From a virus: a DNA stretch of 61,719 bases. A program made the position numbers and the translations under genes. Position 1 is the stretch's first letter; every line of letters begins with the position of its first letter. The stretch lies in the IMG/VR virus record IMGVR_UViG_3300045999_005102, positions 1 to 61,719 of that record; one strand, written 5' to 3'. Under the pieces are notes generated by a model. The model was not told where the DNA came from, made no database searches, and worked only from the letters and a program-made list of their open reading frames with translations. Below, piece by piece: positions 704 through 60,295 of the stretch.

Positions 704-1355
704 CAGCTTTTCCGACCAGTCGTTCAAGGCCGACTCATTCGAGTTCGGCGACGACATTGGCGGCACCGCACAAGGACAGACCACAACCGGCGCGGGAACA
801 GTCAGCGTCGCCATCACGGGCAGCGCGACCACGGCGCAAGGACAGACCGCAACGGCATCTGGCGTCCTGGCATTCAGCGGAACTGCCAACACGGCGCAAG
901 GGCAATCCAACGAGACTGCTGGAACACTGGCGTTCACCGGGGCCGCAAACGCTTCGCAAGGGCAATCCATTGCCGGCACTGGCGCCCAAGCGTTCAGTGG
1001 AGCGGCCACCACCGCACAGGCTCAAGCCGTTGATGGTGCCGCCACCCTGGCGTTCAGTGGCGCAGCCGGCACAGCGCAAGGGCAGGCCGCTGATGGCGCG
1101 GGCACAGTCCTGGGGGGCATCACCGGATTTGCCGAGACAGGCCAAGCACAGGGAATTGTTGCGCGTGGCTTTTACGACGAGTTCCTGGAGCCGATAGGCG
1201 TCGGCGCAGATGCTCGGATTGCTCGGCGCCGGTCAGAATCAGACACCTTCGTTCCAGCCGACGTGCTGGCAATGCGCCGCCTGGACGAAGATGAGATCTT
1301 GCTTGTCATGATCGCCCGCGCTGTCACCTCTGGGGCCTTGAACCAATGGCACTGA
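690..1355 (+). CDS. Repeat-containing structural protein (22-aa repeats)
   Basis: Read from GTG 690, which overlaps the end of the previous gene (ATG 657 is an in-frame alternative). The body has about seven copies of a 22-residue repeat, each carrying AQGQ or a close variant followed by an Ala/Gly/Thr stretch and usually FSGAA or similar. The DNA period is 66 bp. A non-repetitive C-terminal segment of about 65 residues follows, charged and rich in Arg, Asp and Glu. Such regular small-residue repeats fit a fibrous or beta-solenoid virion part. The stop overlaps the ATG of the giant gene at 1346, so the two are probably translationally coupled. Function is inferred from position and repeats only. 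Confidence 0.55.
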   Translation: MFRRSSFSDQSFKADSFEFGDDIGGTAQGQTTTGAGTVSVAITGSATTAQGQTATASGVLAFSGTANTAQGQSNETAGTLAFTGAANASQGQSIAGTGAQAFSGAATTAQAQAVDGAATLAFSGAAGTAQGQAADGAGTVLGGITGFAETGQAQGIVARGFYDEFLEPIGVGADARIARRRSESDTFVPADVLAMRRLDEDEILLVMIARAVTSGALNQWH

Positions 1356-4300
1356 ACACCAAACTCGCCGGGTCCGGCTGCGTCGAAATCGCCGCACGGA
1401 TTTCCCAGGAAGACCAGGACGCGCTGCTGCAGCGCCTCGAAGACCTGGAGGCGGCCGGCACCGGGCGCAAAGAGGCCCAGGTCATCGCCGCGCAGGACGC
1501 CCTGCAGGCGATCCTCGATGAGCGCAAGGAGTTTCAGCGGCTGCTGCGCGAGCAGCACCCGGATCTCTTCGCCGACGACCTCGACGCAATGTTCGATGAC
1601 GTCCTGGCCGAGGAGATGGGCAAGGACAAGGCCGAGGGCAAGAAACCGCTGCGCACGGTGCGCCAGGCGCTGGGCTCCGCGGCCAAGAACACCGGCTCGG
1701 GCCTGACCAACGCTATCGACGGCCTGGGCAAGTTGTTCGGCGGCAAGCCGGGGCAACTGAACTCCGGCATCGGCTTCGACGAGGAGACCTACGCCAAGGC
1801 CAAGCCGTTCTTCCTCCAGGCGATCAAGAACCTCAAGGACGCAGCCCAGGATCTGCGCGAAGCCATGCGGGCAATCGTGCGCATGGTGCTGGACAAGTTC
1901 GGCGCCCAGGCCGCGGAGAACATGAAGCCCTACGTGGTGCGCTTCATGAAGGACGTGCAGGCGGGGGAGGTCAAGTTGGAAGGCCCGGCCACCGCCACCG
2001 AAGGCGAGCGCGTCACCCTGGCGCGTGGGTTCCTGCAGGACTTCGAGGCGGGCAAGTCGTTCGGCACGATCGTGGCAGCCCGCACGCGGGCCAGCGAGAT
2101 CATCGGACGCAAGATCGAGCCGGGCACCGCTGACGCGAAGCTGGTGGACGAGGCGGTCGAACTGGCCGGGGTCATGTTCGCCCGGGGCGTGGTGCGTGCT
2201 GGCGGCACGGCGGTGGAGATCTACAACCGGCTGCAGGAGTTCCAGGAGAACCAGATGCCGGGCCTGAACGTGCGCGACACGATCAGCCTGCGCAATCAGG
2301 CCTACAGCACGCCGCTGCCCCTGGCCTACGTGGCGAGCAAGCTCGCGGGCATCAACTTCCAGACGACGGTCCTGGAGCCCACGGCCGGCAACGGCGCGCT
2401 CGTAATGCGCGCCATGCCCAGCAAGACGGTCACCAACGAGATCAACCCCGACCGGGCCGAGGCGCTGCGCGCCCAAGGCTACACGCCCACGCAGGAAGAC
2501 GCGGCGACGATGAAGTTCGCGCCGAAGTCGGTCAAGGTGGTGATCGCCAACCCGCCGTTCGGCCCGCGTGGCGACGAGCGGTGGCAGATCGACGGCCTGG
2601 ACACACGGGAGATCGACCACGCCATCTCGCTGAACTCCCTGCAGGCCATGGATGACGACGGCACGGCCGTGCTCATCATCGGAGGACCGATCGCACGCGA
2701 GGACGGCGCACGGCGCGACACCTACCGCGGCAAGAGCAAGCGCGAGTTCTTCTACACGCTTTACAACTCCTACAATGTCGTCGATCATTTCACCGTGGCC
2801 GGCGACCTGTACGCTAAACAGGGCGCCACGTTCCCGGTCGATGTCATCGTCATCAAGGGCCGCGGCAAATCGAATCGAGCCCTGCCGGCCGCCCAGTTGC
2901 CGCAACTGGTGGACACCTGGGACGCACTACGGGAGAAGCTGAATGCCAATGCTGATGACTTGGGCGCCGAAGGGACAGGAACTCCTGGGGGCGATACGCG
3001 GGGTCAAGGGCCAGGAACTCAGCCGGGATCTGTACCCGGTACTCCTCCGACGCCGACTGGAGCAGATGGTGGAGACGGCGGAACCAGAGGACGTCCAACA
3101 GATGGAGGATCTGCTGCTGGAGGCGGGACTACTGGCACAGCCACTGGATCGAACCAGGATCGGCCGGGAGGTGGTCGAGGACAACGAGGAAGTCCTGATG
3201 GAACTGCGCAGCCGGGGGATACCGGGACGGATGCCACCGTCCCTGGAGACCAGCAACTCGGCAGCGGAACAGACGGTGCTCGAAACCAACCTGCTGGAGT
3301 GGACACACGCGTTGGTGAGCGGAAGGATCGAGCGCGGGTAAGCGAGGACGACGCTGGCAAGCTCCAGGTCAAGTACAACAACTTCTCCGGCAACAAGTCG
3401 GTCAACACCCTCGTTGCCACCAACCACCTGACGGCCATCGAGCGCGCCTTCGAGGCGCTGCGGGCCCGGGTCGGTGAAATCGACGAGTTCGTGCGCAACG
3501 AACTCAAGTACACCCCCGAAGAGTTCAAGAAGTCGTTTTCGGCCGAACAGGTCGAGGCGCTGGCGCTTGCCATCGACAACATCAAGCGCGGGGCCGGCTT
3601 CATCATCGGCGACCAGACTGGCATCGGCAAGGGCCGGGTCGTGGCGGCCATGATCCGCTACGCCAAGCTCAACGGCAAGACACCGGTCTTCGTCACGCAG
3701 ATGCCGGACCTGTACGGCGACATGATGCGCGACCTGAACGACATCGGCATGAGCAACATCAAGCCGCTGATGACGAACAACAACGCCTCGGTTCCGCTCG
3801 ATGCGGAGGCCCTAGCGTGGTTCGGCGAGAAGCAGGGCATCCAGACCCAGATCGCCGAACTGCAGGACGACATGGACGTGCTGGCCATCGCCGACCTGGG
3901 CAACAAGCTCAACGGCATGGAGGACGCCGACCGCAAGAAGGAGATCGCGGCCGAGGTCAAGCGGTCCACCAACCCCGACATCGTGGCCATCAAGCAGCAG
4001 ATCATCGAACTGCGAGCCGAGATGCCCGAGCGCCGCGGCAAGTTCCTGGAGACGCCCGAGATCGAGCGCCACGAGTCGATGCTTCGCGGCATAGTTGAGT
4101 CCAACTCGATTGGCAACTTCGATGTGATCTTCACCACCTACAACCAGATGGCGCCGCTTGACTCAGGCAAGCCCAGGCGCGATCCGGGGACGGGGTTGAG
4201 GGTTCGCAACCCGGTGAAGTTCGGCTACCGCAATGCGTTCCTGCAGCACTTCGTCAACAGCGACTCCATGCTGATTCTGGACGAGTCGCACAACGCGGGC

Positions 4301-7300
4301 GAGGCCGGCGACGGCAGGTTCCCAAAGGTGGGCGACGTGGTGCGGCAACTCATCAACGCATCGGGCGGGGTCTTCTACTCGTCGGCCACCTTCGCCAAGA
4401 ACCCGAGGGTGATGGATGCCTACAGCAAGACCGACCTGGGTAAGGCGTTCGGCAACGTCACGACGCTGATCGAGAACATCAGCAGCGTGCCGATGCAGCA
4501 GACGTCGTCGGCCATGCTGGTCGCGGCCGGCCAGTACCTGCGGCGCGAGCGGTCGTTCGATGGCATCGAGTACCGCATCGACAGCGTTGAGGTGAACACC
4601 CAGGACGCCGAGGACGTGAGCGAGGCCATGCGCCTCATCGTGGACTTCGATCGGGCCAAGCGCGCCGCAATCCAGGATATCCAGGACGCCCTGGACTCCG
4701 AGGGCGCAGTGATGAGTGCCGGTGGCGCCGGCATGTCGCAGGCGTCGGTGGACTCGGTGAACTTCACCTCGGTGATGCACAACGTCATCAACACGTTCCT
4801 TCTGGCGCTCAAGGCCGAGCAAGCGGCCAACAAGGCGATCGAGGCGATCCGCAGGGGCGAGAAGCCTGTCATCACCGTGGCCAACACCATGGGGGCCTTC
4901 ATCGCCGAGTACGCCAGTGCCGAGAACCTGGGCATCGGCGACAAGATCGAGGCCAGCTTCGCCGACATCCTCACGCGCTACCTGGAGAAGACCCGCACCG
5001 TCACGATCAACAACGGCGACGGCTCGCAGACCAAGACTCGACTGACCGACGAGCAACTGGGTGACGAAGGTGTGGAGGCCTACAACGCGGCCCGCGACTT
5101 CATCGAGGAACTGGAACTGTCGGTCCCGCTGTCGCCCATCGACCACATCAAGCAGTTGATCCAGGGGGCCGGGCACAGCATCGGCGAGATCACGGGGCGG
5201 CAGACGATCGTTGACGAGAACGGCGTGCTGCGCAAGCGCCCGAGCGCCGAGATGAACACGGCCGGCAAGAAGAACACGATCGCCAAGTTCAACGGCGGCC
5301 AACTCGACGCGCTCATCATCAACCGCTCCGGCTCGACCGGGCTGTCGATGCACGCCTCGGAGACCTTCGCCGATCAGCGGCGGCGCGTGATGGTGATCGC
5401 CCAGGCCGAACTGGACATCAACAACCACATGCAGATGCTCGGCCGGGTCAACCGGACGGGGCAAGTCAGCGCCAACGGCAAGGCGCCGCCAGACTTCACG
5501 GCCACCTTCGGCCTGCCGCGCTACGTGCAGATGACGGCCAACGTGCCGATCGAACTGCGCCCGGCTGCGGTGCTGTCGAACAAGATGGCCGGTCTGAGCG
5601 CCAACACCACGGCCGGCCGCAAGTCGGCGGTCGAGGACAAGAGCGCGCCGGACTTCATGAACAAATACGGCGACCGGGTGGCTGCCGAGTTGGTGGGCAG
5701 CGATCAGGCGCTGAACTTGCGCCTGGGGCTTCCCGTGAGCTTCGACGAAAACGGCCGGCCAGCGGTGGATGGCGCCATGGCCAAGGTCACCGGACGCATC
5801 GGCCTGCTACCGCTCAAGGATCAGAACGAACTCTACGACCAACTCGGCGCGGCCTACGTCGAACTGATCGCGCAGTTGGACGCCCTCGGCCAGAACGAAC
5901 TGGAGGCCAAGACCTACCCGCTCGACGCCAAGACCATGGCCACCCGCGAGGTGATGCCGGCCGACGCGGGCTCCGATAGCCCGTTCACGGCCGCTGTCAA
6001 CGCCGAGCGTGTCAACGTCAAGAAGCTCGGCAAGCCCTGGCCCAAGGCCAAGGTCGAGGAACTGGTGCGCGGCGCGCTGGGGATCACGGACGGCAACCAG
6101 ACGGCGGCCAACGTCGCCAAGCTCAAGCGCGCCGAGATGCTGAGTCAGATGCGGCGCGACATCGCCGCCGAACAGCAGGCCAACACCGCGGAGGCCGGCA
6201 CGGACCCCGACAAGGTCACCGAGGCCACCAAGAAGAACGACGCCCTGGACCGGGCGCTCACGCGCTTTCAGTCGATGCTGCCCACCATCGGCCAGGGCGT
6301 GAAGCTGGAGACGGACTCAGGCAACCTGTACGGCATCGTCACCAACGTCGAGCGCAAGGGCAAGGCCAAGTCGGCTGGATCTCTGAGCGTGTGGAAGATC
6401 CGGGTTGCCGTGGTCGATGGCGCCAAGAGCATGACGTTCTCCATGACGCAGTTGGCCGCCACGCCGGAGGAGCGTGCTCTGCGCATGGACGGCGTGATGA
6501 TCTCGCCAGCCACTGAGATGACGGTCATCTCCCAGGATGGCAGCGGAACGGAGCGCGTGCCGATCGCCGACGGATTCGACCGCGGCCAGACCGATGCCCG
6601 CGAGACGCGCTGGATGATTACCGGCAACGTGCTGCGCGGCTACTCGCAGTTCAAGGGCCGCATCCTCAACTACACCGACAGCAGCGGCAACATCCTGCAG
6701 GGCATCATGATGCCTGCAAACTTCGACCTCGACGCTGCGCTGCGCAGGGTGAGGTCGGAGATGAGCGACCCCGCGAAGATCGCCGCGCTTCTGGATGCGG
6801 GCGGCGTGGTGGTGGACAAGGAGACGGGCGGCGACGTCGTCACGCTCAAGCGCAGCGGCGGGGCCTACATCATCGAGGTGCGCCGCAGCGGCACGGGCAA
6901 GAAGATCTCCAAGGATCTCGGCCCGTACTTCTCGTCGGTCGGCAACAGGATGCGTGCCGAGCTATGGAAGAACGGGGAGAGCGACAAGTTCCTGGAGGCG
7001 GTGCGCGGCATCATCAACGTGTTCAAGACGCCCCTGATCGCCGACAAGGACTCGGATTCGATCCTGCGCGGGATGCAGGAGAGGCAGCAGCCGCCGAATC
7101 CGATGGACTTTGCGCGCCAGCCACCCATCCTCGATGTCACCGGCATCAAGGAGATGAAGGGGCGCCACCTTCAAGTCCAGGCCGCGGCTCGCCTGCTGGA
7201 GCAGGGCAAGATCACCCGCAGCCAGTACGACGCCTACGTTGACTTCTACAAGCCAATCGAGTTGATCGAGCCTGACAAGCTGCTCGCGCCCACGTCGGAC

Positions 7301-10300
7301 GAGAAGATGCAGCAGACGGTGGACGCGGGCAAGCGTGACAAGGTCAACGTGCCGGTGGCCGATGGCACCAAGGTCGGTCTTCGCATGGATCTGCCGGCTC
7401 GTGATCGCGGCGGCTCTGTGGTCTCGATCCACGAAGGCAACGCCGGCAGGGCTTCGGCCGGCAAGATCATCAGCTTCCAAAGCACCGGATGGTTGAAGAA
7501 CGTCACGTTCGAGACGCGCAGTCAGACCAAGGGCCTGAAGATCGCCACAGGCGCGGCCAAGGAGCCGCTGCAGACGGTCGAGGGCACATGGTTCAACCTG
7601 TCGCCCGAGGACGCGTTCGCTAGGGCCAAGGCGCTGATGAGCGACCCGGCCTGGAAGCAGATCGGGTTCGACCCCACACGGCACGGCTACTTCTACGACA
7701 GGGCCACAAGGCAGCCTGTTGTGGCCGCTGACGAGGTCTACCAGATCGGCCAGTTCCTCATCGCCAAAAACGTCCAGTTCGCGCCGCGTGAGTCGTTCCT
7801 GTACGCGCCGCCGCCAGACATCCAATCCCCCTCCCTGGCCTTCAGCGAAACCCTGGAGTCGGTGCGGGCCGACGCGCTGCCCACGCTCACGAGCCTGGAG
7901 AAGAAGCGTGACGCGGGCAAGATCACCGAGTCCGAGTACCGCCTGGGCGTGCAGCAGTTGATCGGCCGGATGCAGCGGCGCAACGAAGAGCGCACCTACC
8001 GCAGGGTGGTCAGCGGGCGCAAGCGCGGCACCGACTGGATCATCGCCAAGATGCGCACCGGGGTCTCGCAGGGCACCGTGACGAAGGAGGCCGCTGACTT
8101 CGCGCAGTGGCTGCTCGATCAGAACCCGCACATGGGCGATGGCCTGGGGATCAGCATCAAGAGCGCCGAGAAGGACCGCACGGCAGCCGGCCAGTACGAC
8201 TACGTCAGCAAAGTATTCACGCTGGTCACGGGCAGGATGAGCGACACCACAGCCGTTCACGAGGTCTTGCACCACGCCGAGCGGATGATGCCGATCGAGG
8301 TGCAGGACGGCGTGCTCAAGGAGTGGATCCGCGCTTGGGACGCAGCCTACAAGAACGGCACCCCAGAAATGCGGCAAGCCCTGAATGACATGCTGCACTC
8401 CGGGCTGTTCGGCGACAAGGCGGCGGGCGATCGTCTGCGTGATGCCTACGCCAAGGGGGTGTGGAACTACGACGACCACTACCAGTTGTTCAGCCCGTCA
8501 GAGTTCTGGGCGGTCAACGCCACGCGCATCCTGTCGGGGCGGTATGCGGCCAAGGGCTCGTGGGTCAAGCGGGCGATCCAGTGGATGAGGGAGTTCATCC
8601 AGCGGATCAAGGCCGTCTTTGGCCTGCGCTCTGATGCGCCGATCATCGAGGGCCTGAACGCCGTCATGGAGGGCAACGGCACGTTCCTGTCGCGGCAGAT
8701 GTTGTCGGAGCAGGCGGTGCTGGAAGTTGCCGAGCGCACGCGCCGCGCCCCGCAACCCGCAGCGCCCACCGTCAACGACTTCGCTCGCAACATCACCGAT
8801 GGACTGATCCAGCACTACGGCCGGCCCAAAGCAAAGTTCAAGACGTTCAACGCCTACGACAAGACACTGTCTACCCAGTTCAATAAGGCGCTGAAGGACC
8901 GCGACTTCGGCAAGGTCTTCGCCTACGCGAACGCGATGCAGAACCAAGTGTCGCTGTCGTCGCTGCGGCCGTCCGAGTTGGCACCCAGGCTGCTGCCACG
9001 GGTGGACGACATCGTCTCCGCGGCCCGCACCATGGTGAAGGGACGAGTCGATGATGCCGACACCCAGGGCGCGGCCAACGCCATCTTCGCGGGCACGCTG
9101 GACGGCGCGAGCGTGCTGGAGGGCCGGGTCTGGAGCGAGGAAGAGTTGCGCACCCGGTTCGATCTGACCGACCGTGGCGTGGCGCTCTACAACGAGGCCA
9201 GGGCCGCGATCGACGCCAGCCTGGACGAGGTCTCGGCAGCCGAGGCGTACTCGATGGTGCAGGTCTTCGTGACCAAGGACGTGCGCCGGCAGATCATCGA
9301 CAACCCGCAGTCAGCCCAGCCCCTCATCACGGCGCAGTTGCGCCGGATGTTCGCCCAGCTTGAGGCGGCCATCAAAAAGGCTCAGGAGTTGGGCTTCGAG
9401 GATCGTGTCGCTGAACTGGAAGCGACCCGCGACTCGTACCTCGAAGTGCAACGCAAGGTCGAGTCGGTCTTCAACCTGGGCCGGGCCATGAAGGCTGCAG
9501 GCTACGCGCCCCTGATGCGCTTCGGCAAGTTCACGGTGCAGGCCGAACTCGTCAACCCGGAGACGGGGCAACTGATCCGCGGCGACGACGGCACTGCGGC
9601 CACCCTGTACTTCGAGCGGTTCGAGACCGGGGGCGAGGCTCAAGAGGCTCTGCGCAAGGCTCAGATGCTGCACGAGGGCAACCCCGAGGTGCGGGTGCGC
9701 TTCGGCACGAACAGCGAACTGCAGCACGAGATGTACGCCGGCATCTCGCCCGAGACCCTGGCGCTGTTTGCCGAGGCCGTGGGTGCCAAGGACGTCATGC
9801 GCACCTACTACCAGGACGCCATCTCGGAGCGGTCGGCGCTCAAGCGGCGCCTGAACCGCAAGGGCGTGCCGGGGTACTCCAAGGACATGCCTCGGGTGCT
9901 GTCGAACTTCATCACCAGCAACGGCCGGTACGCCGCGCAGCGGTTCTACCTGCGCGACCTGACCAACGCGGTGAAGTACATCCCGCAAGAAAAGGGCGAC
10001 GTCAGGGACGAGGCGATCAATCTCAAGAACTTCGTCATGAACCCCAACGACCCGGCCGCTCCGGTGTCTACGTTGGCCTTCGCGTGGTTCCTGGGCGGCT
10101 CGGTAGCGGCCATGTTCGTCAACATGGCCCAGCCGTACATGGTCACGTTCCCGCACCTGACGAGGTTCGCCAGCCCAGCGCAAGTGACCGCTGTCATGGC
10201 CAAGGCGCACCCATACGCCTGGGGCCGCAAAGAGATCACCGACCAAGACCTCAAGCGGGCTCTCAAGCGCGCCAGCCAGGAGGGCATCGTTGACGCCCAG

Positions 10301-11566
10301 GAGATCTTCCACCTCTACAGCATCGGCGCGCAGAGCGTGGCGGCCAAGCTGGTCGCGGGGCTGTCGCGCATCCCGGGGGCTGGACGCGGCATCAAGGCCG
10401 GCAGCGAGAGCGCCCGCGCCCGGATCAATGCCTTCCTGACCCTGTGGGGCTCGATGTTCTCGGTGGCCGAGCGGCTGAACCGCAAGGTGACGTTCATCGC
10501 CGCCTACAACCTCGCGGTCGAGAACGGCATGACGGACCCCTACGCCTTCGCGGTGCGGGCTGTCAACGAGACGCAGGGGATCTACAACAAGGTGAGTCGC
10601 CCGAACTGGGCGCGCCCAGGCTTCGGCCGGATCGTGCTCACCTTCAAGCAGTTCCCCATCATGATGGTGGAGCTAATCAACAGAATGTGGCGCAACGGCG
10701 GCCCCGAGGGCAAGCGGGCGGCGCTCATATTCCTGGCCATCCTCATGCTGCTGTCTGGCCAAGAGGGTCTGCCGTTCGCCCAGGATCTGGACGACATCAT
10801 CGACACGCTCGGGCAGATAATGGGCTTTGACACCAACATGAAGGGGTCGAAGCGCGAGTTGGCCTACACGGTCCTGGGCAAGGCGCTGGGCGACCAGTTC
10901 CTCTACGGGCTGTCGGTCTATCTGCCGCTGGACTTCTCCGGCCGCTTCAGCCTGGGCAACCTGATCCCTGGCACCGGCATGTTCAAGAAGTCGAACGCAG
11001 AGTCCACCGGGCGAGAGATCGCTGAGATCGCCGGCCCGGTGTTCGGAGGTCTCGCCACCCAGGCCATGGACGCCTTCGAGGCCTGGAACGCCGGCAACGA
11101 CAGCAAGGCGATGGAGAACATGGCACCCAAGGCCGTTAAGGACGTCGTGGCTGCAGCCAAGATGGCCAAGGAAGGCTACGCGGTGGACCGGGCCGGGCGC
11201 AAGGTGGTGGACACCACGCTCGGAGACGCGGCCATCAAGGCGGCGGGCTTCAACCCGACGGTGGTGGCCAACGTCACGCGCAAGACCATGCCCATCCAGC
11301 AGGACATCGCCCTGCAGCGCACCGTCGAGGCCTCGATCGTCGATCAGTGGGTGCGCGGCATCGTTCAGGACGACGAGGCCATGATCCAGGCAGCGCAGAA
11401 GGAGCGCGACGACTGGAACAAGCGCAACCCCAAGACCCAGATCGTGATCGGGCCGCAGCAGATCAGGAGCAGGATCAAGGCGCGCAACCAGGACAAGGAA
11501 AACCGCGTGCTTCGCAACGCCCCACCGGAGATGCGAGGCCGGATCGCCTCAGAGCTTGCTGAGTAG
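1346..11566 (+). CDS. Giant DarB-like polyvalent protein: methylase, helicase and HExxH peptidase motif
   Basis: A 3406-residue protein, the largest here. Visible in order: AIDGLGKLFGG at 123-133; a SAM-dependent N6-adenine methylase with EPTAGNG near 344-350 and NPPF at 402-405; a Gly/Thr/Pro linker near 530-670 that carries a nested gene; a Strawberry-notch-type helicase with GDQTGIGKGR at 755-764, DESH at 979-982 and QMLGRVNR at 1363-1370; a zinc-peptidase-like HEVLHH at 2305-2310; and a C-terminal part with hydrophobic segments near 2905-2940 and 3125-3150 that resembles large polyvalent protein-associated domains. In the DarB family such proteins are packaged and injected with phage DNA to protect it from restriction; that role here is inferred. 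It is the last late gene, before attP. Confidence 0.85.
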   Translation: MALNTKLAGSGCVEIAARISQEDQDALLQRLEDLEAAGTGRKEAQVIAAQDALQAILDERKEFQRLLREQHPDLFADDLDAMFDDVLAEEMGKDKAEGKKPLRTVRQALGSAAKNTGSGLTNAIDGLGKLFGGKPGQLNSGIGFDEETYAKAKPFFLQAIKNLKDAAQDLREAMRAIVRMVLDKFGAQAAENMKPYVVRFMKDVQAGEVKLEGPATATEGERVTLARGFLQDFEAGKSFGTIVAARTRASEIIGRKIEPGTADAKLVDEAVELAGVMFARGVVRAGGTAVEIYNRLQEFQENQMPGLNVRDTISLRNQAYSTPLPLAYVASKLAGINFQTTVLEPTAGNGALVMRAMPSKTVTNEINPDRAEALRAQGYTPTQEDAATMKFAPKSVKVVIANPPFGPRGDERWQIDGLDTREIDHAISLNSLQAMDDDGTAVLIIGGPIAREDGARRDTYRGKSKREFFYTLYNSYNVVDHFTVAGDLYAKQGATFPVDVIVIKGRGKSNRALPAAQLPQLVDTWDALREKLNANADDLGAEGTGTPGGDTRGQGPGTQPGSVPGTPPTPTGADGGDGGTRGRPTDGGSAAGGGTTGTATGSNQDRPGGGRGQRGSPDGTAQPGDTGTDATVPGDQQLGSGTDGARNQPAGVDTRVGERKDRARVSEDDAGKLQVKYNNFSGNKSVNTLVATNHLTAIERAFEALRARVGEIDEFVRNELKYTPEEFKKSFSAEQVEALALAIDNIKRGAGFIIGDQTGIGKGRVVAAMIRYAKLNGKTPVFVTQMPDLYGDMMRDLNDIGMSNIKPLMTNNNASVPLDAEALAWFGEKQGIQTQIAELQDDMDVLAIADLGNKLNGMEDADRKKEIAAEVKRSTNPDIVAIKQQIIELRAEMPERRGKFLETPEIERHESMLRGIVESNSIGNFDVIFTTYNQMAPLDSGKPRRDPGTGLRVRNPVKFGYRNAFLQHFVNSDSMLILDESHNAGEAGDGRFPKVGDVVRQLINASGGVFYSSATFAKNPRVMDAYSKTDLGKAFGNVTTLIENISSVPMQQTSSAMLVAAGQYLRRERSFDGIEYRIDSVEVNTQDAEDVSEAMRLIVDFDRAKRAAIQDIQDALDSEGAVMSAGGAGMSQASVDSVNFTSVMHNVINTFLLALKAEQAANKAIEAIRRGEKPVITVANTMGAFIAEYASAENLGIGDKIEASFADILTRYLEKTRTVTINNGDGSQTKTRLTDEQLGDEGVEAYNAARDFIEELELSVPLSPIDHIKQLIQGAGHSIGEITGRQTIVDENGVLRKRPSAEMNTAGKKNTIAKFNGGQLDALIINRSGSTGLSMHASETFADQRRRVMVIAQAELDINNHMQMLGRVNRTGQVSANGKAPPDFTATFGLPRYVQMTANVPIELRPAAVLSNKMAGLSANTTAGRKSAVEDKSAPDFMNKYGDRVAAELVGSDQALNLRLGLPVSFDENGRPAVDGAMAKVTGRIGLLPLKDQNELYDQLGAAYVELIAQLDALGQNELEAKTYPLDAKTMATREVMPADAGSDSPFTAAVNAERVNVKKLGKPWPKAKVEELVRGALGITDGNQTAANVAKLKRAEMLSQMRRDIAAEQQANTAEAGTDPDKVTEATKKNDALDRALTRFQSMLPTIGQGVKLETDSGNLYGIVTNVERKGKAKSAGSLSVWKIRVAVVDGAKSMTFSMTQLAATPEERALRMDGVMISPATEMTVISQDGSGTERVPIADGFDRGQTDARETRWMITGNVLRGYSQFKGRILNYTDSSGNILQGIMMPANFDLDAALRRVRSEMSDPAKIAALLDAGGVVVDKETGGDVVTLKRSGGAYIIEVRRSGTGKKISKDLGPYFSSVGNRMRAELWKNGESDKFLEAVRGIINVFKTPLIADKDSDSILRGMQERQQPPNPMDFARQPPILDVTGIKEMKGRHLQVQAAARLLEQGKITRSQYDAYVDFYKPIELIEPDKLLAPTSDEKMQQTVDAGKRDKVNVPVADGTKVGLRMDLPARDRGGSVVSIHEGNAGRASAGKIISFQSTGWLKNVTFETRSQTKGLKIATGAAKEPLQTVEGTWFNLSPEDAFARAKALMSDPAWKQIGFDPTRHGYFYDRATRQPVVAADEVYQIGQFLIAKNVQFAPRESFLYAPPPDIQSPSLAFSETLESVRADALPTLTSLEKKRDAGKITESEYRLGVQQLIGRMQRRNEERTYRRVVSGRKRGTDWIIAKMRTGVSQGTVTKEAADFAQWLLDQNPHMGDGLGISIKSAEKDRTAAGQYDYVSKVFTLVTGRMSDTTAVHEVLHHAERMMPIEVQDGVLKEWIRAWDAAYKNGTPEMRQALNDMLHSGLFGDKAAGDRLRDAYAKGVWNYDDHYQLFSPSEFWAVNATRILSGRYAAKGSWVKRAIQWMREFIQRIKAVFGLRSDAPIIEGLNAVMEGNGTFLSRQMLSEQAVLEVAERTRRAPQPAAPTVNDFARNITDGLIQHYGRPKAKFKTFNAYDKTLSTQFNKALKDRDFGKVFAYANAMQNQVSLSSLRPSELAPRLLPRVDDIVSAARTMVKGRVDDADTQGAANAIFAGTLDGASVLEGRVWSEEELRTRFDLTDRGVALYNEARAAIDASLDEVSAAEAYSMVQVFVTKDVRRQIIDNPQSAQPLITAQLRRMFAQLEAAIKKAQELGFEDRVAELEATRDSYLEVQRKVESVFNLGRAMKAAGYAPLMRFGKFTVQAELVNPETGQLIRGDDGTAATLYFERFETGGEAQEALRKAQMLHEGNPEVRVRFGTNSELQHEMYAGISPETLALFAEAVGAKDVMRTYYQDAISERSALKRRLNRKGVPGYSKDMPRVLSNFITSNGRYAAQRFYLRDLTNAVKYIPQEKGDVRDEAINLKNFVMNPNDPAAPVSTLAFAWFLGGSVAAMFVNMAQPYMVTFPHLTRFASPAQVTAVMAKAHPYAWGRKEITDQDLKRALKRASQEGIVDAQEIFHLYSIGAQSVAAKLVAGLSRIPGAGRGIKAGSESARARINAFLTLWGSMFSVAERLNRKVTFIAAYNLAVENGMTDPYAFAVRAVNETQGIYNKVSRPNWARPGFGRIVLTFKQFPIMMVELINRMWRNGGPEGKRAALIFLAILMLLSGQEGLPFAQDLDDIIDTLGQIMGFDTNMKGSKRELAYTVLGKALGDQFLYGLSVYLPLDFSGRFSLGNLIPGTGMFKKSNAESTGREIAEIAGPVFGGLATQAMDAFEAWNAGNDSKAMENMAPKAVKDVVAAAKMAKEGYAVDRAGRKVVDTTLGDAAIKAAGFNPTVVANVTRKTMPIQQDIALQRTVEASIVDQWVRGIVQDDEAMIQAAQKERDDWNKRNPKTQIVIGPQQIRSRIKARNQDKENRVLRNAPPEMRGRIASELAE
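2943..3341 (+). CDS. Nested +1-frame gene inside the giant polyvalent gene
   Basis: A 132-residue ORF wholly inside the linker region of the 3406-aa gene, shifted by +1. The ATG follows directly after a TGA in the same frame, with GGAG at 2932-2935 and 7-base spacing. Of its first 40 codons 30 end in G or C, but only 17 of the 40 overlapping host-frame codons do; that host frame reads as Gly/Thr/Pro low complexity with many GGA, ACT and CCT codons. The product looks like a folded, helical, Leu/Glu-rich protein (for example RRRLEQMVETAEPEDVQQME). I recognise no family. The alternative is a relic of a once in-frame segment rescued by two compensating frameshifts. Confidence 0.65.
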   Translation: MPMLMTWAPKGQELLGAIRGVKGQELSRDLYPVLLRRRLEQMVETAEPEDVQQMEDLLLEAGLLAQPLDRTRIGREVVEDNEEVLMELRSRGIPGRMPPSLETSNSAAEQTVLETNLLEWTHALVSGRIERG

Positions 11567-56116: not shown

Positions 56117-59100
56117 ATGGCACTGAACCAGAACTTCTCGGACTTCTTCGAGCAGCCGGCGCCGAAGCCGGCGCAGCCGAAGCCCGCCCAGCCCAAGCCG
56201 GCCGCGCCCGCCGAAGACAAGTTCGCAGGCGTGCCGGCCTGGACCGACATCCAGTCCAAGCCCGAGTTCCAGGCGCTGCCTGCGGCCAAGCAAGCCGAGG
56301 CCAAGGCCGCCTACTTCGACTACTGGGTGGCGCCGCGAGTCGGCCAGGACGCGGGCGCGATCCGCGAGCAGTTCCTGGGCCCAGCGCCAGAGCCAGCCCC
56401 CGCCGTAGACGAGCAGGCTGGGCAGGCGGCGTTCGGGATCTACCCCAAGGCCAAGAGCGCCAAGCCGGCCAAGCCGATCCTGGAGCAGCCGGGCCCGGTG
56501 CCCGACCAGGAGTTCACCAGCCGGGCGCCCGTCAAGCCCGAGGTTCGGCGTGCGTTCGAGGCGGCTTGGAACTCGGCCACGCCCGCCGAGCGGTCGATGA
56601 TGGGCGCTGCCCCCGGCTGGACGGGACAACTGGCCCGCGAGCGCGCCGGTTTCGCCCAGGCCACCGACCAGGGCATGGCTCAGGCCGGCACCGGCATGCG
56701 CACCATGCTCGAAGGCCTGGACCCCCGCGCCGAGTTCCGAGCCGCCCGTCTGCGCCTGCAGGGCGAAGACCCGCGCTTTGCCGAGACGGCCGGGCGCGAG
56801 GGCGCCAAGCGCAACGTCACGCCTGGGCAAGAGATCAAGGCGCTGGACGGCACGGTCCAAGAGTCCACGTTCAACTTCGAGACTGCCGACTTCTTCGACC
56901 CCAAGAACCCGGCCAACGGCGCGAACAACGCGCTGGTGCGCGGCATCACCAAGGGCGTGCTCGGGATCGGCAAGACCTACGCCGGCCTGTTCCAGTTCCA
57001 GTCCGACTTGATCGGGTTCGATGCAGCCTCGAAGTCGGCGGCTGACGCCGGGCGCGGCATTCGCGGCCAGGAAGAGGCCATCGGCGAGCGCGGAACTTTC
57101 CTGGAGCGCAACCTGGAAGGCGCAGTCAGTTCGATCGCCCAACAGTTGCCGCTCCTCATCACCGGCACGGCCGTGGCATCGCAGGCCATCCCGCTCGCCG
57201 GCATGGCGCTGCAGTCGTTCGGCCAGGAGTACAGCGACGGTCGGGCCAAGGGGCAGAACACTGGACAGGCCGCCACCCGGGCTGGGATGTTCTCTGCCTT
57301 CGAGGTGATCGGCGAGAAGTTCGGCCTGGGCGCCCAGATGGACGCGCTGCGCGCCGCGGCTCGGGGCATGCCCACGGACGAGATCGCCAACCTGCTGTTC
57401 TCGGCGCTGAAGAAGGAGATCCCGGGCGAACTGCTGACCACCACCGGCCAGTTCTCGGTGGACAAGTTCGCGGGCAACGGCATTGGCCTAAACCCGAACG
57501 CCACGTTCGGCGACTACATGAAGCAGGTCGCCGACACGATCGCGCAGACCATCATGCAGTCGGGGCTCATGGGTGCTGGCACCACGGGCGTCTCGGCAGG
57601 CGTGCGTTTTCTGCGCGACAGTGGCGTGAGCCAGGGCGTGGCCGAGGCCGACGCAGAGGCCGCTAAGCGCACGGCGCTGGATCGTTGGTCCGGTTTCATC
57701 GGTCGCAAGCAGCCGGCCGCGGACACGCCGACCACGGTGGACGGCCGGATCGAGCCCAGCCTGGGCGCCACCGCGCCGGCCGGGGATCCGCTCGTCCAGA
57801 CCGCCGACGAGATCGTGCGCGGCATGGCAACCGACGCGGGCCTGCCCGAGTCCACGGTGCTGCCGACCGCACCCACGGCGACGAATGCCCCGGCTGCGGA
57901 GGCGCAACCGACGGTGGATGCCGGGATCGCTGCGCAGACGTCGGCTGGGGCGCCCGCCACACCGGCCGCCATCACCCAGGGCGACCAGGACATCCTCGAC
58001 TTCGCGGGCACGCGCTTCCAGCAGTTGCGCGACAAGCAGGGCACGCCCGAAGAACCCGGCCCGGGGTTGTCCGCAAGCGAGTCCCAGGAACTGCAGGCCC
58101 TCGTGCAGGCACGCGGCAACCCTGTCGCGTTGCGCGAGTTCTACGGCATCGACCAACCAGGAGAAGCAGATGTACGGCAAACCGAAGAATCACTCGATGG
58201 GTCTGCATCAGGCCCGGCCACCGGCCAAGGCGCCCAAGGGCAAGCAGCCCCCGGCGCAGTACCAGAACAGCCAGGGCAACAGCCCAATGAAGATGGCCAA
58301 GCGCAAGGGCTAGACCAAGCGATCGACGGCCTGGGCGCCCTGTTCGGCGGTCAACAGCAAGAGACCGAAGCGCAGCGCGAAGCCCGCCTGGAGCGCGAGG
58401 CGATCCAGGGCGAGAGCGCCTTCCAGGCCCAGGCGCCTACCAACGACGACGACATCCCATTGGATCTCGGCCCACCCAGGACCGAGAAAGAGGCACGCCA
58501 GCGAAAGGAGCAGCAGCCCAATGTCCAAGCCGATCAAGCCCAGCAAGCAGAAACGCCGCGAGAAGAAACCCTACGAGCCCCCGCCGCACCGCAGGGTGCT
58601 GCCGCCCCAGGGGTAGGGCCCAAGACCGAGCGCGAGGCCAAGCGGCAACGCGACGTGGAAGATCTGACTGCGCAAGTCAACTCGGCGACAAGTCTTGAAG
58701 AGCTTTCCAGGATCGCCAACGAATCCAATGCGCGCTTTCCCGAAGCCGACGTGCTGGGAGAAGGTGAGCCGAATGACGATGACAGGGCGATGGCCGCTGT
58801 CTCGCGGGCGGCTGCGCAACGCGCAAAGCAAATCATGGAAAGTGGTAGGGGCAATTCCACCACTCCCAAGACCGAGAAAGAAGCCAAGGAGCGCAAGCAA
58901 CAGCCTGCGACAGAGGCTGAACTAGATGCGCTGTATGACCGCGCCGAAAAGCTGACAAAGGACTTCCCGAAAGAGTCTGGAGAAATCCAGCAGCAGGTCA
59001 TGGACGCCGGCGAGAAGTTTTCTTTGCCGGAGGTCGAGGCGCGCCTTTCGGATCTTGAGCAGAGGCAAGAGCGCGTCAGGCAAATCAAAAACGACTTCAA

Positions 59101-60295
59101 CAGTTGGCGAGAGGGCCTGCGGCGCACAGAGGGCGAACTGCGCACGTCGTTGCTTGATCCAGCCAACAAGAATCGCACGGACGAGATCAACAAGCAGATC
59201 GAAAACCTGGGCGATCAGGCAGCAGCCGGGTATCAGAAGCTCGAAGCCGACATCGAGGCAGCCAAGACAGGCAAACCGGCCAAGCCCAAGACCGAACGCG
59301 AGGCCAAGCAGCAGCGGCTGGCCGACAAGCCGCTGCCGGAGTGGACGCAGAAAAAAGACAACTCGTTCCCGGACGGAACCTCGTTCGAGTGGGAGCAGAA
59401 CGGCGACAACGTCTTCTTGGTGGCCAAAGTCGGAGACAAAGTTGTCTCTCGTCAGAGCGAAGGACAGGTCCGCGAGCGCGTGGCTTACGGCTCAATGGTG
59501 ATGAGCAAGGCCCTGCTCGAAGAAAAGATGAGGGAACTCGGCCTGACCCCGGACCAGAAGTGGACCCCGAAAGGCGGCGACACCAGCGTCCAGGATGCCA
59601 TCGACAGGAGAGAGAAGCGGTCTGACGAGCGTTCGCGTGTAAGCGGAGCTTTAGACGACGCCATCAAGCGGGCCGACAAGGCTGGCGCAACCGAGACCAA
59701 GTCAAAGCTGGTTGGGGCGCGCATCAAGTTCGACAACAAGAGCATGGGCCCAGCCGAAGTGCGCAAGTTGATCGAGCGCACCGACTCGGACATCGAAAAG
59801 GAAACCGCACCCAAGACCGGCGCCGAGCCGCAAAGGCTGTCCGCAAAGCAAATCAACAGGCTCATAACCAAGCACGGCACGCAGTTCAACAACCCAGTCG
59901 AGATTGAGCGTGCGTTCGGCGATGGCGACCTAGTGTTTGCCTCGCACGACATGATGGAGGAGCCGGCGCAAGTCACCACCATGAAGATGCTGGAGAGCTA
60001 CACGCCTGACCAGCTTTTCATCGTGCCACGGGCGGCTGCAGAAGAGACCCTGAGCCGGGGTGGGGCGCCCAAGCCCAAGACCGAGAAAGAGGCCAAGGCC
60101 CCAGCCCCACCGCCCCCACCGCCGCCGCCGCCGCCCCAGGCCCCCACCCTCTCCGGCGTGAAGGTCAAATTCGACGTCATGGTCGAAGATACGGGCCAGA
60201 CGGCGTCGATGACGGTGGATGCTGCTGCCCAGATGAAAGAGTACGAAGACCGCGAATCAGTGTTGCGAGAGTTGATCGCTTGCCTGCAAAAGTGA
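56117..60295 (+). CDS. Large polyvalent/ejection protein with KTEKEAK repeats
   Basis: A 1392-residue protein. A Pro/Lys head is followed by a hydrophobic middle (QQLPLLITGTAVASQAIPLAGMAL, about 340-365, in an ERNLEGAVSSIAQQ...FGQEYSDGRAKG context) that resembles transmembrane-bearing parts of giant phage polyvalent proteins. AIDGLGALFGG at 735-745 also occurs in the 3406-aa protein. The tail is charged, with five (K/R)TE(K/R)EA(K/R) repeats near 790, 836, 918, 1058 and 1321, and a poly-Pro run near 1332-1345. Two nested +1-frame genes lie in its linkers. Probably injected with DNA. Confidence 0.7.
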   Translation: MALNQNFSDFFEQPAPKPAQPKPAQPKPAAPAEDKFAGVPAWTDIQSKPEFQALPAAKQAEAKAAYFDYWVAPRVGQDAGAIREQFLGPAPEPAPAVDEQAGQAAFGIYPKAKSAKPAKPILEQPGPVPDQEFTSRAPVKPEVRRAFEAAWNSATPAERSMMGAAPGWTGQLARERAGFAQATDQGMAQAGTGMRTMLEGLDPRAEFRAARLRLQGEDPRFAETAGREGAKRNVTPGQEIKALDGTVQESTFNFETADFFDPKNPANGANNALVRGITKGVLGIGKTYAGLFQFQSDLIGFDAASKSAADAGRGIRGQEEAIGERGTFLERNLEGAVSSIAQQLPLLITGTAVASQAIPLAGMALQSFGQEYSDGRAKGQNTGQAATRAGMFSAFEVIGEKFGLGAQMDALRAAARGMPTDEIANLLFSALKKEIPGELLTTTGQFSVDKFAGNGIGLNPNATFGDYMKQVADTIAQTIMQSGLMGAGTTGVSAGVRFLRDSGVSQGVAEADAEAAKRTALDRWSGFIGRKQPAADTPTTVDGRIEPSLGATAPAGDPLVQTADEIVRGMATDAGLPESTVLPTAPTATNAPAAEAQPTVDAGIAAQTSAGAPATPAAITQGDQDILDFAGTRFQQLRDKQGTPEEPGPGLSASESQELQALVQARGNPVALREFYGIDQPGEADVRQTEESLDGSASGPATGQGAQGQAAPGAVPEQPGQQPNEDGQAQGLDQAIDGLGALFGGQQQETEAQREARLEREAIQGESAFQAQAPTNDDDIPLDLGPPRTEKEARQRKEQQPNVQADQAQQAETPREETLRAPAAPQGAAAPGVGPKTEREAKRQRDVEDLTAQVNSATSLEELSRIANESNARFPEADVLGEGEPNDDDRAMAAVSRAAAQRAKQIMESGRGNSTTPKTEKEAKERKQQPATEAELDALYDRAEKLTKDFPKESGEIQQQVMDAGEKFSLPEVEARLSDLEQRQERVRQIKNDFNSWREGLRRTEGELRTSLLDPANKNRTDEINKQIENLGDQAAAGYQKLEADIEAAKTGKPAKPKTEREAKQQRLADKPLPEWTQKKDNSFPDGTSFEWEQNGDNVFLVAKVGDKVVSRQSEGQVRERVAYGSMVMSKALLEEKMRELGLTPDQKWTPKGGDTSVQDAIDRREKRSDERSRVSGALDDAIKRADKAGATETKSKLVGARIKFDNKSMGPAEVRKLIERTDSDIEKETAPKTGAEPQRLSAKQINRLITKHGTQFNNPVEIERAFGDGDLVFASHDMMEEPAQVTTMKMLESYTPDQLFIVPRAAAEETLSRGGAPKPKTEKEAKAPAPPPPPPPPPPQAPTLSGVKVKFDVMVEDTGQTASMTVDAAAQMKEYEDRESVLRELIACLQK
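58170..58313 (+). CDS. Nested +1-frame basic microprotein 1
   Basis: A 47-residue, Lys/Gln/Pro-rich protein (MYGKPKNHSMGLHQARP...) inside the 1392-aa gene. AGGAG at 58159-58163 is six bases before the ATG, an ideal Shine-Dalgarno site. 41 of 47 codons end in G or C, against 22 of 47 for the overlapping host frame, which reads as Gly/Gln/Ala/Pro low complexity. Basic composition suggests nucleic-acid binding. Overprinted gene by inference. Confidence 0.7.
   Translation: MYGKPKNHSMGLHQARPPAKAPKGKQPPAQYQNSQGNSPMKMAKRKG
58521..58616 (+). CDS. Nested +1-frame basic microprotein 2
   Basis: A 31-residue, strongly basic protein (MSKPIKPSKQKRREKKPYEP...) in the same +1 frame. AAGGAG at 58505-58510 is ten bases before the ATG. 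29 of 31 codons end in G or C, against 15 of 32 for the host frame here. Lys/Arg/Pro content suggests DNA or RNA contact. Short length makes it less sure than the other nested genes, but codon bias is striking. Confidence 0.6.
   Translation: MSKPIKPSKQKRREKKPYEPPPHRRVLPPQG

Follow-up and report, generated by a model that had tools for sequence, protein, structure and literature searches.

A probable overlapping gene within the linker of DarB-like methyltransferase-helicase genes of phages, plasmids and cyanobacteria

The locus and its nested reading frame

The window, meaning the whole stretch of DNA that was analysed (61,719 nt, 61.7 kb), is the viral IMG/VR record IMGVR_UViG_3300045999_005102, and its portal protein (PHROG 156), major head protein (PHROG 334) and internal virion protein (PHROG 511) mark its source as a podovirus-like phage. 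Its structural region also contains a 1392-aa ORF (56117-60295) without a PHROG match at E 1e-5. A giant ORF, referred to here as the host gene, encloses a small ORF in another frame, which we call X. The features of the locus are listed below.

1346..11566, + strand: host ORF, a DarB-like polyvalent protein of 3406 aa (ORF list, domain matches)
2549..2560, + strand: NPPF catalytic motif of the host adenine methyltransferase (sequence)
2932..2935, + strand: Shine-Dalgarno GGAG of X, inside conserved host LREKLN/LKEKLN codons (sequence; AAGGAG kept in relatives)
2940..2942, + strand: TGA stop in the +1 frame, abutting the ATG of X (sequence); it rules out frameshift entry upstream of the ATG
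2943..3341, + strand: nested gene X, 132 aa plus TAA, frame +1 relative to the host (ORF list, homologues, substitution pattern, AlphaFold2); predicted order E4-7, E18-21, six helices
2945..3352, + strand: host-frame Gly/Thr/Pro/Ala linker, about host aa 534-669, with low GC3, no stop and weak amino-acid constraint; probably the younger, overprinted frame
3530..3766, + strand: AAA_34 / Strawberry-notch helicase N-terminal NTPase match (E 1.4e-21; residues 64-142 of the ORF at 3341-5800)
5138..5680, + strand: Helicase_C_4, C-terminal domain of the Strawberry notch homologue (E 8.7e-16; residues 600-780 of the same ORF)

The host protein runs from an N6-adenine methyltransferase part through the linker to a Strawberry-notch helicase and a long C-terminal part without a Pfam match. 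Its N-terminal part also had no Pfam match, and the methyltransferase part was matched by a PHROG DNA methyltransferase (E 5.8e-9). The linker is of low complexity, with 20% Gly. By architecture, the host gene meets the criterion for a DarB-like methylase-helicase dyad, namely an NPP(Y/F) adenine methyltransferase with a C-terminal SF2 helicase. Such dyads of polyvalent proteins were described by Iyer et al. 2017 (PMC5512222), and the host gene resembles them in having an NPPF adenine methyltransferase followed by a SWI2/SNF2-like helicase, here of Strawberry-notch type. DarB of phage P1 is carried in the virion and shields DNA from type I restriction (PMC5512222).

An earlier note, made from the letters of the window alone, had pointed to a +1 ORF at 2943-3341 with an ATG right after a stop, GGAG at 7-base spacing and its own TAA, and all of these were verified in the sequence, 7 nt separating GGAG from the ATG at 2943. 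Its count of G/C-ending codons among the first 40, 30 for X and 17 for the host frame, was reproduced exactly. Over the full overlap, 102/132 codons end in G or C in X versus 54/132 in the host frame; GC3 of the entire host gene is 0.88. The window is GC-rich and contains 196 ORFs of at least 100 aa in six frames, so the length of X by itself is weak evidence. What raises X above chance is the conserved ORF, start, Shine-Dalgarno site and frame in relatives, together with the substitution pattern of the nested frame, the suppression of synonymous change in the host frame and the absence of host stops.

Conservation, selection on both frames and production of X

Used as a lone single-sequence query, X found no relatives in phages by tblastn, in viral contigs, in Pfam or in PHROG. 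Relatives were reached through searches with the helicase flank and then with an X profile over IMG/VR and GTDB genomes. The closest relative (L002) has a +1 ORF at the equivalent site whose product is 45% identical to X across 124 aa (E 3e-32), and its host linker is also of low complexity. At E<1e-3, nested matches were found at 113 loci, and all except one (L135) lie in frame +1 (112/113). The host frame is open at 110 of these 112 loci, the two others being a contig edge (L086) and a host gene interrupted by stops (L136). Some contigs are counted more than once among these loci; what remains is 94 different nested DNA sequences, drawn from phages in IMG/VR and from GTDB genomes, all of them in frame +1 and situated between the methyltransferase part of the host protein and its Strawberry-notch helicase. 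Under a first-ATG rule, 80/94 of these have a Shine-Dalgarno-like site ahead of the start, versus 197/1948 (10%) control +1-frame ATGs; typically, AAGGAG lies 6 to 10 nt ahead of the ATG, and this start context falls within host LKE codons. In about 14/94 the first ATG has no such site, and the choice of start is uncertain there.

Substitutions in the overlap were analysed in 30 independent sequence pairs. Changes at nested codon positions 1, 2 and 3 numbered 576, 480 and 1030. The nested second position is thus the lowest, which means that the host third position is the slowest, the opposite of what is expected if only the host frame were constrained. For changes that are synonymous in the host frame the nested N/S ratio was 0.26, and for those that are nonsynonymous there it was 0.54; the host N/S ratio among nested-nonsynonymous changes was 1.30. 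When the comparison was limited to 4-fold sites coding an identical host residue, divergence was 4.8% in the overlap versus 38.2% upstream and 45.0% downstream, and it was lower in the overlap in 30/30 pairs against the downstream and 29/29 against the upstream region. Shuffling of X's own synonymous codons gave an expectation of 195.8 host-frame stops, and 0 were observed; in the third frame, 1130 were observed versus 1108 expected. The absence of host stops indicates that both frames are held open. As expected of a negative control, X genes standing alone outside any host gene have 8-15 stops in the host-equivalent frame.

One could argue that a biased low-complexity linker merely leaves the +1 frame open and that the homology of X is a by-product of host conservation, since GC-rich DNA carries many long spurious ORFs, as the window itself does. 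The data leave scarcely any room for such an artefact: amino-acid identity within the overlap is lower for the host than for the nested frame in all 30 pairs, host synonymous sites are frozen while nested third positions are free, stops are plentiful in the third frame and missing from the host frame, the Shine-Dalgarno site and ATG are conserved, and the frame is retained even in AT-rich relatives (e.g. L004, host GC3 about 0.2). The comparison of relatives that the earlier note had proposed came out in favour of its claim of an overlapping gene under selection, which is now strongly supported by homology, substitution pattern and host stop avoidance: no +1-frame stop was found in relatives, start and Shine-Dalgarno site are kept, and purifying selection acts on the nested frame and not on the host frame alone. 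Together with the fixed position and frame and a confident fold prediction, these results make it very probable that 2943-3341 is dual-coding and that X is a real overlapping gene, a conclusion drawn from sequence analysis without expression data.

Under this dual-coding interpretation, the giant methyltransferase-helicase ORF would be read straight through, giving a Gly-rich disordered linker, and an internal start on the same mRNA, at the Shine-Dalgarno site and the ATG at 2943, would give a separate soluble X of about 15 kDa. Internal initiation at this ATG is the most likely route, although it is inferred, with no ribosome profiling, proteomics or mutant. Programmed frameshifting into the +1 frame, yielding a methyltransferase-X fusion, would suit a +1 relation that is fixed throughout the family, and one locus has X in frame with the helicase. 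We consider it very improbable, because the ATG of the window, like that of many relatives, directly follows a +1 stop, and the shift would then have to occur within X, past the conserved Shine-Dalgarno site and ATG. A separate helicase made by reinitiation after the stop of X was also rejected. No conserved host-frame start was found near that stop in phages, so the giant protein must there be read through X; at several loci of cyanobacteria an ATG does occur about 23 nt past the stop.

The locus with X in the helicase frame is L135, from a Leptolyngbya MAG (4389-5915 and 5326-11304), where the methyltransferase lies in another frame. This arrangement may reflect an indel introduced by sequencing or a natural fusion of X with the helicase.

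Fold, family and distribution of X

AlphaFold2, run with 62 homologues, predicted X to be well folded (mean pLDDT 95.6, pTM 0.87), with two short strands followed by six helices, in line with the earlier description of the product as a normal helical protein. The structure prediction and profile search suggested at that time matched X to no known family or fold: Foldseek gave no significant match in PDB (best E 1.8) or BFVD (best E 0.73), and no convincing family was found in Pfam, PHROG, NCBIfam, PADLOC or PDB sequences. Matches to DUF438 (E 0.025), to ParD (E 0.001, one stand-alone copy) and to DELLA GAI (E 0.0075, short subfamily) each concerned a single member only and were judged to be chance, below the cut-off or unrelated. 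X therefore apparently represents a new protein family and, going by the predicted model, a new fold. The family is acidic, with a median pI of 4.5 and a median net charge of -9.5, and X of the window has 23 acidic and 15 basic residues. DNA mimics of the Ocr/ArdA type are more negatively charged, and such a role is unsupported by the charge of X. Many phage copies (L035-L089) share a conserved C-terminal SSLD, SDLD or SDLA tail, which is possibly a recognition or degradation signal.

Shorter +1 ORFs occupy the X site in relatives that were at first scored as lacking X, and many of them are homologous to one another. They form a shorter, all-helical subfamily at the same site in diverged dyads (L098:4633-4950 and relatives). 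A single comparison of this subfamily with the X profile gave a probability of 94% and E 1.7e-7, and in the AlphaFold2 model (pLDDT 86.5) the helical part is present and the N-terminal strands are missing. A few loci of the clade, among them L093 and L114, remain unresolved. At the equivalent place (L165:4905-5267), a +1 run of 121 codons is open in the cultured Bacteroides phage BS-TP4 (PQ571277.1) and ends in a similar L..W motif; its homology to X is suggestive only (single comparison, hhalign E 0.0013).

On the helicase tree, X is confined to one dyad clade, and the overlap is a fixed feature of this whole methyltransferase-Strawberry-notch clade, in phages, plasmids and cyanobacterial genomes, rather than a peculiarity of the window phage. 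Carriers of the overlap include plasmid pB of Chroococcidiopsis sp. CCNUC1 and plasmid3 of Synechococcus sp. NIES-970. X was absent from the outgroup dyads and lone helicases of Bacteroidota, Xanthomonas, Pseudomonas, Cupriavidus, Vogesella and an Acinetobacter phage. The plasmid dyads of Xanthomonas, Pseudomonas, Vogesella and Cupriavidus and the Acinetobacter phage have different linkers and no homologous +1 ORF, and another outgroup dyad (L154) has only a short, unrelated linker.

When the X profile alone was searched across about 1100 genomes, matches lay nearly always inside dyads. The exceptions are four stand-alone chromosomal X genes in one cyanobacterial order (L188, L189, L194 and L197; e.g. 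L188:1312-1950). They form one clade (support 0.968) within the cyanobacterial nested clade, and by this position they are best read as escapes from the overlap, which is what they look like from sequence. No nested copy was found in these genomes, and the neighbourhoods are housekeeping loci without a common functional hint. On plasmid1 of Leptolyngbya boryana NIES-2135 (L174), a probable X is a separate annotated gene (BAY59332.1; 2414-2911) just upstream of a helicase-methyltransferase ORF. The match is weak (hhalign E 1.4e-4), and the methyltransferase motif NPPF (nt 7741) is C-terminal to the helicase, an order unique in the set.

In the plasmid records examined, X is uncalled in all but one, and in that one the call came with a truncated helicase. 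The record is Gloeobacter morelensis pGMOR1 (L175), where X (WP_230844304.1; 3932-4381) and a truncated helicase (4378-8856) are annotated, yet the host frame is open over 2917-8853. In Oscillatoria sp. CS-180 (L136), the host ORF (4297-6759) is interrupted by in-frame stops and the X frame (5312-5908) is intact.

Origin, possible role and relation to known overlapping genes

The earlier note had regarded X as overprinted within a linker left free to encode a second protein. The second coding frame stands, while the direction is probably the reverse, the linker overprinting X, as judged from codon usage and fold. We infer that X is probably the older frame and the Gly-rich linker the younger one, on account of the normal codon usage and confident predicted fold of X, the odd, disordered linker, the unfused copy in L. 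boryana and the outgroup dyads without X. The linker would have arisen once the reading frames on either side were joined across X. Only the codon usage, the predicted fold and a single unfused case with a weak match (L174, E 1.4e-4) underlie this order of age.

Classical overprinting, with an old linker in which X was born de novo and stand-alone or unfused copies as later escapes, is less credible but cannot be dismissed. X-less outgroup dyads do exist, and since the four stand-alone copies are one clade inside the cyanobacterial nested clade, escape does occur. On the other hand, it is the linker and not X that has aberrant codon usage (54/132 versus 102/132) and low-complexity composition (20% Gly), the outgroup linker of L154 is short and unrelated, and X has a confident predicted alpha/beta fold.

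As to function, X accompanies the dyad across phages and plasmids, and a relocated methyltransferase does not separate it from the helicase. From this genomic association alone we infer, at slightly below even confidence, that X is a dedicated accessory partner, regulatory, assembly or targeting, of the methyltransferase-helicase machine and would be produced alongside it from a shared message. Two caveats apply: a gene that overlaps another goes wherever its host gene goes, which inflates co-occurrence, and in the four cyanobacterial genomes with stand-alone X no nested copy was found, so that in those genomes at least X can act in the absence of the dyad.

The main rival to the partner role holds that X is real but independent of the dyad and is an anti-defence or host-takeover effector in its own right, sharing the message for co-expression only. 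The stand-alone chromosomal genes, with no dyad-linked copy found, and the acidity of X would fit, many anti-defence proteins being acidic. We nevertheless regard it as unlikely, since X keeps its place between the methyltransferase and the helicase even in phages and plasmids that are very distant from one another, still adjoins the helicase in L174, where the methyltransferase is relocated to the C-terminus, has a charge far below DNA-mimic strength and has no PADLOC match. The partner role belongs to a broader proposal, which we put forward only tentatively: X would be an unrecognised third dyad component with a new fold, the giant protein would come from read-through of X, the linker would be a by-product of X codons, and X would have escaped at least once to a cyanobacterial chromosome.

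Embedded genes of this kind have precedents. In the lambda Rz/Rz1 spanins, the small Rz1 gene is wholly embedded in the +1 frame of Rz, and two-component spanin genes whose products act together also occur in overlapped and separated arrangements (PMC6139136). Like Rz1, X is a small +1-frame gene embedded in a phage gene and missed by gene callers. Unlike Rz1, it encodes no outer-membrane lipoprotein, X of the window having neither cysteine nor lipobox, so that the o-spanin criterion is not met; it is placed in the linker between two domains of a giant protein with many domains, whereas the Rz1 overlap is in the C-terminal region; and it is predicted to be a globular domain and occurs also in plasmids and cyanobacteria. 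With the overlapping genes of the phiX174 type, reviewed together with de novo overprinting in PMC8227390, X shares an internal, same-strand position and selection on both frames. It differs in that the folded protein is encoded by the nested frame and the disordered one by the host frame, and in that codon usage is closer to normal in the nested frame, which makes the direction of overprinting look like the reverse of the usual one. The genomes concerned, moreover, are those of large dsDNA phages or plasmids and not of small viruses. For the dyad itself, the passages on it in PMC5512222 that were consulted mention no embedded gene, and the words 'overlap' and 'linker' are absent from the main text of that paper. 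A literature search, which was not exhaustive, found no report of the X overlap. Embedded +1 phage genes and the dyad are thus already known; the X overlap and the X family are apparently new.

Long same-strand overlaps in which both frames are demonstrably selected have rarely been established in large dsDNA phages or plasmids, and here the linker is apparently secondary to the embedded gene, with apparent escape of that gene. The case also exposes an annotation error, in which a nested gene is overlooked or is called at the cost of truncating the helicase, as in pGMOR1. Kept over very distant mobile elements, the overlap points to a protein family hidden within one of the best-known anti-restriction architectures, and X offers a testable missing component for the methyltransferase-helicase dyad.
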